From positions 1 through 32,469 of the forward strand of contig JAGCGL010000012.1 of the NCBI GenBank assembly GCA_017649605.1: 32,469 bases of DNA. Reading direction: 5' to 3'. Positions 2,679 through 32,469 of the stretch are shown piece after piece. Below the pieces are notes generated by a model. It worked only from the letters and a program-made list of their open reading frames with translations, made no database searches and had not been told where the DNA came from. The number at the start of each line of letters is the position of its first letter. Within the stretch, counting starts at the first letter, position 1. The position numbers and the translations under genes are program-made. This stretch comes from Spirochaetia bacterium. Lineage in GTDB: Bacteria; Spirochaetota; Spirochaetia; CADAEX01.

Positions 2679-3428
2679 ATGAAGATTTGGGCCCACAGAG
2701 GGTGCTGCTACACCTGGCCAGAGAATACACTGCAGTCCTTCGAGGCTGCCAGCAAGCTGCCTGTGACAGGAATAGAGCTTGATATCCAGCTGACCAAAGA
2801 CCGGAAGATGGTTGTAATCCACGACGAGAAAGTGGACCGGACCACCAACGGGAAAGGCTGGGTAAAGGACTTCTCACTCGAGGAGATCAAAGCTCTCAAG
2901 ATAGAGACCCATCCTGTAAATGGAGAAAAGCAGTATACCCAGGTTCCAACCATCGAAGAGGTTTTCACCCTTCTCAAGCCTGTATGCCTCAGCAAGGGGC
3001 TTCTTATAAACATAGAGCTCAAGACCAGCGAAGTGCGCTACGAAGGAATCGAAGACATGATTGTTGCGCTGGTCAAGGAATGGGGCTTGGACAAATATAT
3101 TGTCTATTCCTCCTTCAATCCTGACTCCATTGTGCTTATCAAGCAGAAGTACCCGTATGTGAACGCAGGAATTCTCTACGACTCCGAGAAGCTGTGCCTG
3201 GAGTTCTCACAGAAATATCCGGTGAACGCGCTTCATCCTTATGTAGAGATGCTGGATGTTCCAAATATCAGGGAGAAGACAGACCTCCCTATCCGTGTAT
3301 GGAACGAGGAGGAGATCTTCTATCCAGGCAAGGAGCCATGCAAGCACTATGACTTTAAGGCGCTGGAGAAGCTTGGTGTGACCGATATCTTCACCAATAT
3401 CGCCGACTACTATTGCAGCGGGAAATAA
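2679..3428 (+). CDS. Glycerophosphodiester phosphodiesterase
   Basis: Cytoplasmic enzyme of the GDPD TIM-barrel family (UgpQ-like), 249 aa. It hydrolyses glycerophosphodiesters from phospholipid turnover to glycerol-3-phosphate and an alcohol. Visible catalytic elements are HRG (residues 6-8), PENT (14-17), the metal ligands in GIELDIQ (31-37) and H48 in VVIHDEKVDRTTNGKG; INIELK follows near residue 110. No signal peptide is present, unlike GlpQ, so it acts on internal substrates. The start has a good GGAGG ribosome site and its own promoter. It heads a three-gene cluster (7-bp gap to the next gene). Confidence 0.92.
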   Translation: MKIWAHRGCCYTWPENTLQSFEAASKLPVTGIELDIQLTKDRKMVVIHDEKVDRTTNGKGWVKDFSLEEIKALKIETHPVNGEKQYTQVPTIEEVFTLLKPVCLSKGLLINIELKTSEVRYEGIEDMIVALVKEWGLDKYIVYSSFNPDSIVLIKQKYPYVNAGILYDSEKLCLEFSQKYPVNALHPYVEMLDVPNIREKTDLPIRVWNEEEIFYPGKEPCKHYDFKALEKLGVTDIFTNIADYYCSGK

Positions 3429-8194: not shown

Positions 8195-11100
8195 CACATT
8201 GAATACCTGTCTTCCTTGTTCTTCTTGACCTGTGTCTTGAGCTCCGGTATCGGGTTCCACTGCACCAGGATGCAGAACTCAGACTTCCAGTCCCAGTTAG
8301 GCCGCTGTCCCGAAGAATCCAGCTCCGGATAACCTTTGTAGGTATAGGAAAGGTCCCAGTCCCCAAGGTGATGCACCAGCTTGGTCTCCAGGCTCTTAAG
8401 CTTGAATCCGGACTCGTAGCGTTTGTCCCTGTCCCAGAATGTGAAGGATTTCCACAGGTCTGTGAATGGATTTATATATTCCTCACCCACTGTGCTGGCC
8501 TTGGACTTGGAATATCGGTATGTGTTGTTGTTCTCCGAAGTGGTCTTGAAAGAGATGTCAAACAGCCTGTAGACATTGGCATGGAAGCCGAAGCTTGCTG
8601 TCAGGGCATTGTCGGTGAACTTCTGGAGATCCATGTTGTATCCGATGTTGATATCGGTCTTATACCTTATTCTGTTGCGCCAGAAAGGCTTTCCGTACCT
8701 TGAGAAGTTGAAGGTGGCCACAAACTTGGACGGCACAAACTCCTCGTCATCCTCCTGCACCCAGCCTACTCCATCCTCGTACTCGTACGGGCGCATCCAC
8801 TCTGCCTTGTACATCAGGTTCAGATACCACAGGTTGAGTGTCGAAACAGCCTCCTGGTGGTGCCCCTCATAAATGTTGTACATATAGCTCTGCTTGAAAT
8901 AGACATCATCATCAAAGAAGCTTATCTTTCCCTCCAGCTCGTAATCCTGGGCATAGTTGTGCTGCAGGTTCTGCCTGTAGATTCCCTGGAGATAGCTGCG
9001 TCCATACTCAAGGCGCTCGGTGAACCTGAGCGGATCGTAGAAGATATAGCCGTCATCATCCTCCTTCATCCTGAAGAACATAGATGAAGCAAGAGGACCG
9101 GTGCGGAGGATATCCTCGTTCTCGAACTCCCTGTTCAGAGGCTCCATAACAGTCTTGAAGCGGGCTGTCTGGAACTGCCGCCAGTCGGAAAGGTAGCTGA
9201 GCATAAGCTCGGTCTCGTGCTTCTTGAAGTATTCCTTGTCCCATTCAAAAGTGTCATCAACATAGACAGGGTCGTCTTTCTCGTCGATATAATCAAAGCT
9301 CTTCCTGTACAGGATAATGTCTGCGGTGTAGGAAAGATAGCTTTCGGAGATACGGTCGAACATGAAGAGCGGCATAGTCTTAAGGGTCAGGTCATTCTCT
9401 ATCTGATAGTTGGAGGACATATAATCCTGAAGCCTAAGGTTATCCCACTCGTCATCGGTAAGGGTCTCGTCCCGGTCGGCATGCTTACGGTACTCGCCGC
9501 TGAAAACCAGGTCCTCGTCAACAGTGAACAGAGTGTTCAGCACCCCTGCCCTGTACATGAGCTTTCCCTCGCCGTAGGTACGCATGATAGAATAGGTGCG
9601 GTCAAAGTCCACATCGCTGGGCACCAGCACATCGGCATCCTTGAGACGGTTATCTATGATGAAGTTAGGAGTTATCAAATAACCAAGGTTGTGCTCGAAG
9701 AAGTTACGGTCCGAATAGAGGGTTATAGGGATGTCTTCCACATCATCAGGAGCCCTGAGTCCCCATATCTCCTCCTTCTCCTCTTTTTTCTCATCCTCAA
9801 AAGGAGAATGGACTGTGGCCTTGAGCTGCTCGGCCAGCTTTTTCCTTGCCTCTATCTCCTCCTCGGTCTCCTCCGACTCCTCTGCCTCCTTGGCTTCTCG
9901 GCGCTCCTCAAGTTCCTTCTGGCGGCGCTGCTCCCTTGACTCCCGTGCTGTGTCGCTGTTGAATGTGCGGTCAAAGATAGTGCCGTCTATCTTTACAGCC
10001 AGGTCTGGGAGAACATAGTTCTCAGGATAGTAGAAGGTGGCTTCCGGGAATGTGTAATCGGTTCTGTTACCCGGGTCTATATATCTGTCAGATGCAGGAT
10101 CAAGCCCATTGAAGCCGGTGAAATCCCGCTCCTTGTTCTTCCAGTTCATGTAGAAGTCCAGCTTGGTCACCTGAACATCAAAGTAGTTGCCGAATATCTT
10201 GAAGGTAGGGTCAAATTCGGTATGGAACAGCCAGTAGAGACGGTCTCTGACACCTGTGTATTCATCCTCCACATCCTCAAGATCATCCTCCATGCCCAGA
10301 ATCTTGCCCCAGTTCATGTTCTCGCTCCGGTTCTCGAAATCCCTGAGCAGGTATGGGTCTGAATAGATGTCAAAGGAGAGAGTGGACTTGAAGTATTTGA
10401 AATCAATTCCTGTGTTCAGCTCTGCTCCGTACCGGAACGGCAGTTCGGTGCTGCCGAAATAGCCTTTGTTCCAGTAGTCGTCCAGGCTCCGGTCGTCATA
10501 TTCATAGTATGGGGTGCTGTACCCCGAATAGTCGTATATATTACGGGTCTTGGCAAAGCCGAGGTAGAACTTGGTCTCGTTGATATGCTCGGTCTTGTTC
10601 AGGTCTCCCTCCAGGGCTCCATAGAGTCCCAGGTTGTAGTAGGCATCGGCCATAAGCTTTATGTAGGATTCGTCGTCCGGATTCTCCTTGAGGGTCTCGG
10701 TACGCCTTAAGTAAAGGCCGTTCAGCTCCTTCTCGTACAGCCGGTCCTCGGCATCGGAGGCAGCCAGGAAAGAGAGGTTCTCGCCGCTGGAGGAAGGCTC
10801 TCCCTTGATATATGTGGTGGTCTGGATAAAATGGCCTTTCACATCATGGTATCCTACAGAAGGACGGAATACAAAGCGGTCTCCGGGCTTGAAGAAGAAC
10901 GGGAAGTAGAACATAGGTATGTTGCCGACATAGAGGACAGCATTGCGCACTCCCCACTCTCCCGGAGCCAGGAGCCATATCTTCTTGGCCTTAAGCCTGT
11001 AGTAGGAGGTCTCGGGATCACCGTTGGAGGTGATAGTGGCATTCTCCATCACAGAGACATTCTTGCCCGATTTGAAGATCTTGTCGCCCGAATAGAAGAA

Positions 11101-30627: not shown

Positions 30628-30789
30628 GAGCCAATAACAGGACTCCCTTCGCAGGTGGCGCTCCCGCAGACATCCACATACCCTTCTGAACTCGTTTCTT
30701 TTGGGTTCAGAAGGGCGTGTATGTTGCTGCGGTCCGCAATGCTCTGGGAGCCCTGTTTTGGCTCTTGGGTGTTACCCCTTTCTTATACA
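30601..30789. ncRNA. Long imperfect hairpin: candidate structured RNA (6S-like?) or inverted-repeat element
   Basis: Outer arms of 11 nt (TGTATAAGAAA at 30601, complement ending 30789) enclose a second 10-bp stem (CAAGAGCCAA at 30625-30634 with TTGGCTCTTG at 30758-30767). Then come ACAGG/CCTGT, CTCCC/GGGAG, an asymmetric bubble, CCGCAG/CTGCGG, ACATAC/GTATGT and an 11-bp apical stem CCCTTCTGAAC/GTTCAGAAGGG. This long rod with a central bubble, about 190 nt, is the architecture of 6S RNA; GTGGCGCTCC on the plus strand also occurs in E. coli 6S as I recall it. Strand is unresolved. A palindromic mobile repeat is the alternative. No protein gene lies in 30562-30852. Confidence 0.45.
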
Positions 30790-30812
30790 GTAAGCGCAAA
30801 AGGATAATGACA

Positions 30813-30835
30813 CACAAACTCGAAGTGGGTTTGTG
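30813..30835 (-). terminator. Hairpin after the WYL regulator gene
   Basis: CACAAAC (30813-30819) pairs with GTTTGTG (30829-30835) around a 9-nt loop, 18 bp past the WYL stop on the minus strand. There is no proper T-run after it, so it is a weak terminator candidate. Confidence 0.4.
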
Positions 30836-30852
30836 GGGCGGTAACTGGAGAA

Positions 30853-31833
30853 TTACTTGGAAACAAGCTTAGCCATGTCCGCAATCTTGTCTTTCCAACG
30901 TTGAACAAAATCTTTTGGCGCAACTGGCCTTGCATCTGCACCACATGAGAGAATCCAAGCAAGAATCCTGTCATCCTGACTTGATGTAAAGGTCAGAACG
31001 GTTTTATTCTCCTTCTCTTCTATCACTTGGTCATCAGCCCATCGGTTCTCTCTTACCCACACCTGAACCTCTCGATAGAACTCAATCTTGTATTTGACTG
31101 GTTCCTTGAAAGTATAGGCCCCGAAGCGGCTGAAACCATGCCGGACGGAAAACTCAAAATCAGCGGGAAGATCAAATGTCTTACCTACAAAGCGTATCTG
31201 CTCCATACGTCTGATAACAAACATGCGGACATCCTGCCGCTCCTCATCATAACCATAAAGATAACAAGTGCCGTCTTCCAGCAGAAGCTGATATGGATGG
31301 ACAATGCGGTTCTTCCGCTCCTTATCATACTTTCCCTTGTAAATGAACTGAATTTTACAGTTGCGGTTCATATAATCAAGAATCCTGGAGAACTTGGCCT
31401 GGTCAGCCTTGCTGTATTCCGGCCGTGGTGGAACTGCAATCCGTGAGAAATCTGATATCGGCATCTCGGTAAGACTTTCGATATATTCAATAATCTTGTC
31501 ATAAACCGGAGTATTCTGATACTGGTTAAGAAGCGACTTAAGAATGGCAAGTGTAGTGTAATTTCTCATGGAATCTGCTGTAATATGCCTTGATTTTTTC
31601 CAGTCCTTATTCATCCTGAAGGTAAGCTGATGTCTGTCATAGGTGATAATCTGCTCTCCCTCATCCCCTATCAGGGCAAGTTCCCGGCCAAGGGTTGCCG
31701 GGCTCCCCAGTCCTGCATTCTTGAGTGTAGTTTTATTAATGACACCGCCCCTTGCATGGGCTTCCAAAACCAGGCGGATAAGCTTGTTTATTCTGGCATT
31801 TCGCTCTGCACTGAGGCTTTTGTTGTAATACAT
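30853..31833 (-). CDS. WYL-domain transcriptional regulator
   Basis: 326-aa DNA-binding regulator. An N-terminal winged helix-turn-helix (about 14-75) is followed by a helical linker, a WYL domain (about 157-215; CKIQFIYKGKYDKERKNRIV then HPYQLLLEDGTCYLYGYD) and a C-terminal WCX-like extension (about 250-320). The name-giving Trp-Tyr-Leu reads Cys-Tyr-Leu (190-192). This wHTH-WYL-WCX order matches regulators such as PafBC and the BrxR/CapW group; the latter repress phage-defence operons. It is divergent from a mini-FGE/Nmad3 gene pair with a palindrome between them, so it probably controls that unit. No ribosome site; predicted leaderless. Confidence 0.85.
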   Translation of the reverse strand: MYYNKSLSAERNARINKLIRLVLEAHARGGVINKTTLKNAGLGSPATLGRELALIGDEGEQIITYDRHQLTFRMNKDWKKSRHITADSMRNYTTLAILKSLLNQYQNTPVYDKIIEYIESLTEMPISDFSRIAVPPRPEYSKADQAKFSRILDYMNRNCKIQFIYKGKYDKERKNRIVHPYQLLLEDGTCYLYGYDEERQDVRMFVIRRMEQIRFVGKTFDLPADFEFSVRHGFSRFGAYTFKEPVKYKIEFYREVQVWVRENRWADDQVIEEKENKTVLTFTSSQDDRILAWILSCGADARPVAPKDFVQRWKDKIADMAKLVSK

Positions 31834-31839
31834 ATCTTC

Positions 31840-31868
31840 ATTCTGAAATATTTTTGTAAAAATTGCAA
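31840..31868 (-). promoter_or_regulatory. Promoter of the WYL regulator gene
   Basis: Minus strand: -35 TTGCAA (31868-31863), 17-bp spacer, -10 CAGAAT (31845-31840, 4 of 6 consensus), six bases, then ATG at 31833. The -35 is the same hexamer and the geometry the same as for argA. The palindrome at 31873-31888 sits 4 bp upstream of the -35. Confidence 0.45.
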
Positions 31869-31872
31869 GTCA

Positions 31873-31888
31873 GTATCATCAATGATAC
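31873..31888. promoter_or_regulatory. Palindrome GTATCAT-CA-ATGATAC, candidate operator
   Basis: Perfect 7-bp arms with a 2-bp centre, lying in the divergent region between the WYL regulator (31833, minus) and the mini-FGE gene (31930, plus). It touches the -35 zone of both directions, as expected of an autoregulatory operator for the adjacent WYL protein. Function is inferred from position and symmetry. Confidence 0.5.
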
Positions 31889-31929
31889 AGACTTGGCTAT
31901 ATATTTTAGATAGAAAAAGGAGAAAAGCT

Positions 31930-32355
31930 ATGGCAATAGCGGTAAAACATCGTGTTACAAAACGGGAATATGCTGAAGTGTACGAAGATTACAAAGAAGT
32001 ATTCAGAGAAGATGAGCTGGATGAGCCTATCCTGCTGAAATGGGCAATAGCTGCTGAGTTCTGCAATGACAAGAGCATCAAAGAAGGTCTGCAGCCCTGT
32101 TATTACCTCAATGGAGAAGTTGTGGACAGCGCTAAAGGTAATTATGATATCAGAGGGGAAAACTATGAATGCCGTACAGAGAATAACGGATATAGGATTC
32201 CACCTTCCAGATTGCTTTTGGATGATGACCAATGGTCAAACGATGAAGGCGAATGGGCTGAATCTTTCACCGTAGTCCGCACTATCAAAATATCGCAAGA
32301 CCCCGAGGAAAGACACGCTTTCAGCATCTGCTATAATCTTCCGTATGGTGCATGA
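31930..32355 (+). CDS. Shortened formylglycine-generating-enzyme-like (SUMF1) protein
   Basis: 141-aa cytoplasmic protein. Residues about 40-100 (AIAAEFCNDKSIKEGLQPCY then YLNG and NNGYRIPPSRLLL) match the middle of FGE-sulfatase/SUMF1 domains, where the pattern is AxxYCN...S..EGLxPxY...NGYRLPTEAEW. The second half of a normal SUMF1 domain (GNVWEW, RGGSW, GFR and the copper-binding cysteines) is absent and replaced by about 35 residues ending LPYGA. It is therefore a mini-domain or remnant and unlikely to be a formylglycine enzyme. A good AAAGGAG ribosome site precedes ATG 31930. It lies opposite the WYL regulator and 41 bp before the Nmad3 gene. Confidence 0.6.
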   Translation: MAIAVKHRVTKREYAEVYEDYKEVFREDELDEPILLKWAIAAEFCNDKSIKEGLQPCYYLNGEVVDSAKGNYDIRGENYECRTENNGYRIPPSRLLLDDDQWSNDEGEWAESFTVVRTIKISQDPEERHAFSICYNLPYGA

Positions 32356-32373
32356 AAAAACCTAAAACTGTGG

Positions 32374-32379
32374 TATAAT
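32374..32379 (+). promoter_or_regulatory. Extended -10 promoter before the Nmad3 gene
   Basis: TGG followed directly by a perfect TATAAT (32374-32379) gives the TGn extended -10 form; no good -35 is seen. Start predicted near 32386, and an AGAGG ribosome site lies at 32386-32390, so the leader would be very short. Confidence 0.45.
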
Positions 32380-32396
32380 ATAACAAGAGGCATAAA

Positions 32397-32469
32397 ATGA
32401 AAGTTATTTTTAGCAGAAAAGGCTTTGACAGTTCCTATGGTGGGTTCCCATCTATTATCTTACCAGATG
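32397..32469 (+). CDS. Nmad3 family putative nucleotide modification protein, 3' truncated by window
   Basis: Only the first 24 residues are in the window: MKVIFSRKGFDSSYGGFPSI then ILPD. I recognise this as the conserved N-terminus of Nmad3 (nucleotide modification associated domain 3), a family proposed from genome context to take part in DNA base modification systems; its biochemistry is not known to me. Start ATG 32397 follows an AGAGG site and its own extended -10 promoter. It is on the same strand as the mini-FGE gene, behind the WYL regulator. The rest, and possible partner genes, lie beyond the window. Confidence 0.65.
   Translation, partial: MKVIFSRKGFDSSYGGFPSIILPD

Follow-up and report, generated by a model that had tools for sequence, protein, structure and literature searches.

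Genes and features at the contig end

The window, that is, the whole stretch of 32,469 nucleotides analysed here, is an entire contig (C29) of a 1.79-Mb spirochaete MAG (genome G000). At its right end, the gene for a WYL-WCX regulator diverges from a gene for a short FGE-like protein and the start of an Nmad3 gene (Table 1), as an earlier note on this DNA had described. That note also gave the regulator a wHTH-WYL-WCX architecture. The WYL and WCX domains both scored above their curated cut-offs; the N-terminal wHTH had no Pfam HTH match, although residues 1–80 show good conservation in seven loci. Orthologues of the regulator are 65–92% identical across six loci.

Table 1 Features of the cassette within the window
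Feature	Position	Strand	Basis or remark
Inserted cassette, left part	30638–32469	.	Continues on contig C53 to ~3172–3242; flank distances in G006/G003 and GC contrast
WYL-WCX transcriptional regulator, 326 aa	30853–31833	-	PF13280 E = 1.6e-15, PF25583 E = 3e-8; six-locus orthologues
Near-palindromic putative operator CAAGTCAGTATCATCAATGATACAGACTTG	31866–31895	.	14-nt arms, 93% complementary; kept in seven loci
Short FGE/C-type-lectin-like protein, 141 aa, without catalytic FGE cysteine pair	31930–32355	+	Family profile against TvpA 2y3c
Start of Nmad3 gene (slot gene), cut by contig end	32397–32469	+	PF18754 E = 7.5e-8 on 24 residues; remainder C53:3–947

Searched alone, the FGE-like protein had no Pfam match. 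A profile of six orthologues matched Treponema denticola variable protein 1 (TvpA, PDB 2y3c; E = 6.5e-9), an FGE-type C-type-lectin protein, and it is this family match that makes the earlier description of a shortened SUMF1-like protein right; the window protein is also shorter than its orthologues (185–201 aa). The match, which points to a shared FGE-type C-type-lectin fold, covers the N-terminal half only. The catalytic C-terminal FGE cysteine pair is absent from the window protein, in which no cysteine lies beyond C81 in the numbering of the L004 orthologue, or beyond the conserved ECR motif, apart from one near the end in another context; we therefore do not class the protein as an enzyme. 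Prompted by the TvpA relationship, we inspected the ORFs of the locus by eye for a diversity-generating retroelement and recognized no reverse transcriptase. The cassette protein thus differs from the TvpA/FGE family in its half-length match, its missing cysteine pair and the fact that no retroelement-based diversification was seen.

As anticipated, the module is cut by the window edge, where the contig ends. The 24 Nmad3 codons in the window match PF18754 positions 1–23, and a gene remainder matching positions 23–246 lies at the beginning of G000 contig C53, from base 3; a search of that genome found this one further Nmad3 match. Together with a full-length match of the L004 orthologue (positions 1–246, E = 4e-45), these halves bear out the assignment of the edge gene to the Nmad3 family. 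The two contig ends have CAGATG in common, a 6-bp overlap that gives an in-frame join and that, taken alone, would be weak support for joining them. The join is nevertheless very likely, because the contigs carry complementary halves of one gene and the gene order around it is found on a single contig in a relative, G005.

After Nmad3, C53 encodes a NUDIX hydrolase that has a small domain fused to its C terminus. A CAT-like acetyltransferase gene comes next, and then an LPD3-like gene, which was assigned by a sub-threshold match. The partner enzymes that the earlier note had expected therefore do follow, as NUDIX and small domain here and as UDG-type proteins in relatives. Of the methylases, nucleases and helicases that it suggested looking for to the right, none is part of the module in this genome, and the in-cassette neighbours are not housekeeping genes either. 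The NUDIX domain is 96% identical to that of the G005 orthologue (PF00293, E = 2.7e-12) and carries RELREETGL, which fits the NUDIX core REUXEEXGU. Its small partner domain is fused or separate among the cassettes. We also observed this domain in two other settings. In the complete chromosome of G292 (L056:8289–13435), a cluster comprises genes for a WYL protein, a macrodomain-like protein, a 306-aa protein, a GIY-YIG-like protein, a NUDIX protein that shares the YKGAG type and a protein with the small domain at its end, with the WYL, macrodomain-like and GIY-YIG-like names given by reading the sequences; this cluster may have the skeleton of the cassette but carry different cargo. In G081 (L057:6270–7788), the small domain is a separate 131-aa ORF that overlaps a Fic-like gene, possibly as its antitoxin-like partner.

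Several further features of the two contigs were recorded. A tract of about 2.5 kb on C53 (943–3403; L046) is 99–100% identical to G005 and bounded by stretches of 81–93% identity, a sign that the NUDIX, CAT-like and LPD3-like genes recently recombined or were transferred. Contamination of the assembly with C53 from the G005 species was considered and rejected, given the identity of ~81–93% outside the 2.5-kb 99% tract. Around C53 positions 2440–2585 and 9980–10140, short stretches (~50–160 bp, 71–97% identical) have counterparts at numerous sites in G000, G004 and G005 and form interspersed repeat families. Downstream of the WYL gene, within the cassette but close to its left edge, lies a large imperfect hairpin (30664–30732; 28-nt arms, 75% complementary, 13-nt loop) that is possibly a two-way terminator. 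Rfam gave no match in 28–32.5 kb, and a promoter scan scored no better than shuffles.

Putative operator and distribution of the cassette

The palindrome that the earlier note had called perfect is present between the divergent genes and conserved in seven loci, but it is near-perfect, with one mismatched pair and a 2-nt spacer. Its core, TATCAtcAaTGATA, lies between the divergent genes in L003–L007 and upstream of the WYL gene in L008. Across 41 genomes, the pattern TCNNTATCATNANTGATANNGA had a single occurrence per genome in the three that bear the cassette and none in the 38 others, and its reversed control was absent from all genomes scanned. Because the pattern was built from the cassette loci themselves, its presence there is expected, and its absence from the other genomes is the informative part. 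This uniqueness to the module points to one promoter region as the likely target of the WYL protein, and the near-palindrome is likely to be a dedicated operator that the protein is predicted to bind. WYL repressors control defence islands (PMC9122601). With the BrxR/CapW-type repressors (PMC9122601, PMC9122589), the regulator shares a WYL and C-terminal WCX domain, a position beside its probable target genes and an inverted repeat in the promoter region; the predicted target here, however, is a small operon of FGE-like, slot and NUDIX genes rather than BREX or CBASS. A search of solved structures by sequence matched no BrxR structure; its sole relative was PafBC, with a weak match (E = 0.0024).

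The locus is not fixed among relatives. A close WYL gene (86–100% identity) was present in G000, G004 and G005, three of seven congeneric genomes, and the cassette occupies the same chromosomal site in G000 and G005 and another site in G004. At the former site, the gap between the flanks is 170 bp in G006 and ~418 bp in G003, leaving it empty, and the sequences that flank the cassette lead into other genes in G002 and G004. The AT-richness pointed out earlier was confirmed: the lowest-GC kilobase of the window is 31–32 kb (42.7%), and GC content falls from 51.3% and 49.6% in the flanks to 43.8% in the window part of the cassette, 33.9% in its continuation (C53 1–3172) and 27% in Nmad3. The Treponema loci are 65–68% identical to the window in WYL. 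Compared with each other, they reach 98–99% identity over stretches, suggesting that exchange between these loci was recent. No common exact repeat of at least 10 bp was found at the cassette ends, either as flanking direct repeats or as a bounding repeat element. Scans of viral contigs with the WYL, FGE-like, small-domain and third-slot proteins gave no match, indicating that these are not common phage genes. The cassette appears to be small, mobile and recently and horizontally acquired.

The exchangeable slot and its genes

The gene after the FGE-like gene, which we term the slot, encodes Nmad3, a UDG-superfamily protein or a member of a third family with glycosylase-like motifs, and it has been swapped between near-identical flanks twice independently. 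Between the window genome and G005, DNA identity is 90–95% up to the FGE start codon, 58–77% in the FGE N-terminal half, at background (~40–50%) through the FGE C-terminal half and the slot gene, and 93–100% from the NUDIX start; the slot holds Nmad3 in the former and an unrelated 245-aa protein in the latter. Between T. porcinum (L005) and another Treponema (L006), sequences mostly 94–99% identical lie on both sides of ~630 bp at ~42%, within which a relative of the 245-aa protein (L005) is replaced by a UDG-superfamily protein (L006; PF03167, E = 8.3e-8 for the L006/L007 version). This second exchange leaves the FGE-like gene unswapped. The 245-aa family carries LGLNPGG and GLPHxS motifs that resemble UDG motifs; profile comparison with UDG gave an hhalign probability of 16%, and the fold model (pLDDT 32.6) offered no usable fold, so that a glycosylase-like nature is a motif-level lead only. 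Different gut spirochaetes thus seem to fill the slot with different DNA-base-handling genes.

Nmad3 is also a phage gene, detected by an alignment search where single-sequence scans of viral contigs and phages had found no match. Its neighbours on phage contigs are DNA methylases (L059, L060 and L062, named by reading the sequences) or a directly adjoining Nmad2 (L064), and it adjoins Nmad2 in a Burkholderia replicon as well. In that B. stagnalis replicon (L050:8475–11031), Nmad3 is followed by an apparently broken Nmad2 and lies directly downstream of a MotA/MotB-like pair that is possibly Zorya-type. These neighbours, and the Nmad3 name itself, would suit a module in which Nmad3 and the NUDIX enzyme contribute to the synthesis or control of a modified base carried by the DNA of the host or of a mobile element. 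We regard such a role as a faint prospect: the cassette contains no base-modifying enzyme, and the place of its slot gene can be taken by a UDG-superfamily protein, expected to remove bases rather than make them. The proposal of a possible regulated DNA-modification or defence module stands in so far as the locus is regulated, variable and accessory and has partner genes, and two of the conditions named to refute it, ordinary housekeeping neighbours and a locus fixed in relatives, turned out otherwise; nothing indicates that the host modifies its own DNA.

A PUA/EVE-like motif had been noted in Nmad3 before folding. In a Foldseek search with the Nmad3 model (pLDDT 68.5, pTM 0.76), the first three and most of the first 15 matches were PUA-like, all with E > 0.1 and individually not significant; EVE, ASCH and the m5C-reading McrB N-domain were among the best PDB matches, at E > 0.1. 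These matches weakly suggest, and are consistent with, a PUA/EVE-like modified-base reader, although they are not proof of one. EVE pairs with YafY (HTH-WYL) regulators in a survey (PMC7641849). The EVE/ASCH readers treated there are the top structural neighbours of the Nmad3 model, with no significant match; Nmad3, however, has about double the length and goes unmentioned in the survey. Our literature search found no tested function for Nmad3. That it and UDG-type proteins are interchangeable at a single regulated site suggests that it acts on modified bases, and the evidence favours action on such bases, by a reader or a glycosylase in the slot, over making them.

Function of the cassette

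UDG and NUDIX are classic sanitation enzymes, and PafBC and DriD are WYL regulators that respond to DNA damage. The UDG-superfamily and NUDIX matches would also suit an operon for DNA-damage or nucleotide-pool repair of the host's own DNA, as would the weak relationship of the regulator to PafBC. This explanation is unlikely in our judgement: presence and absence, relocation and slot exchange are unusual for repair genes, a housekeeping UDG was found elsewhere in all 21 relatives' genomes examined, and Nmad3 occurs in phages. The small domain raises a further alternative, a toxin–antitoxin or abortive-infection locus in which the NUDIX and small domains process a signal derived from NAD or a nucleotide, with the slot gene acting as the toxin or selecting the toxin's target. 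The domain recurs after the Fic protein of G081 and, under a WYL regulator, with the NUDIX, macrodomain-like and GIY-YIG-like genes of G292, and the best NCBIfam relative of the NUDIX protein is NtrR, an ADPR-responsive repressor, far below cut-off. The cassette, however, contains no recognized toxin, and NUDIX and WYL are constant while the gene under exchange is the DNA-related one, which makes such a locus decidedly unlikely.

We favour a WYL-controlled, horizontally acquired accessory cassette with an exchangeable slot, for which anti-phage action against modified-base DNA is the most likely role, at roughly an even chance. Counted in favour of this role are the module-unique putative operator, presence/absence and relocation, slot exchange, the UDG match, the neighbours of Nmad3 in phage contigs and on the Burkholderia replicon and its weak likeness to EVE, ASCH and the McrB N-domain; counted against it, beside the fit of the UDG and NUDIX enzymes to repair, are a PADLOC search that matched no defence-effector model, its matches being limited to a generic WYL model and a weak NUDIX candidate, and the lack of an obvious defence island around the cassette in this genome. 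In an anti-phage cassette, the WYL protein would bind the palindrome as a dimer and hold the operon repressed; the appearance of a nucleic-acid or nucleotide ligand in infection would lift this repression. The slot protein would then recognize the invader's modified bases (Nmad3, as a possible PUA/EVE-like reader) or excise them (the UDG-type glycosylase), with the FGE-like protein as a non-catalytic partner and the NUDIX enzyme hydrolysing a nucleotide product or signal.

The UDG-fold glycosylases Brig1 and Brig3 are a proven defence against modified phages (PMC13160076). One slot protein belongs to the same superfamily, the level at which we draw the likeness, and it too lies in a small operon with a partner gene; here, however, the glycosylase-type gene and Nmad3 can take each other's place beside constant WYL, FGE-like and NUDIX partners. 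The locus in the window does not count as a Brig system, because its own slot gene is Nmad3 and the UDG match is limited to the L006/L007 version. In the DefensePredictor text consulted (PMC13092281), NMAD and UDG domains are among the unvalidated predicted defence candidates, with the Nmad family unspecified; a WYL/FGE/NUDIX cassette does not appear there. Nor was the combination with an exchangeable slot found in our search of open-licence papers, a set without the original Nmad description. Tentatively, the cassette may represent a previously undescribed modular defence, a possibility to which we give somewhat less than even weight, in which a constant WYL protein, operator, NUDIX and small partner would serve a plug-in slot (Nmad3 reader or glycosylase), and the target modification would be changed by a one-gene swap, once together with the FGE-like partner.

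The putative dedicated operator provides a handle for finding more copies of the cassette, which would be a natural case of specificity altered by the swap of one gene. For the Nmad3 family, the interchange at the slot hints at a role in acting on modified bases, in a compact operon that is open to testing.
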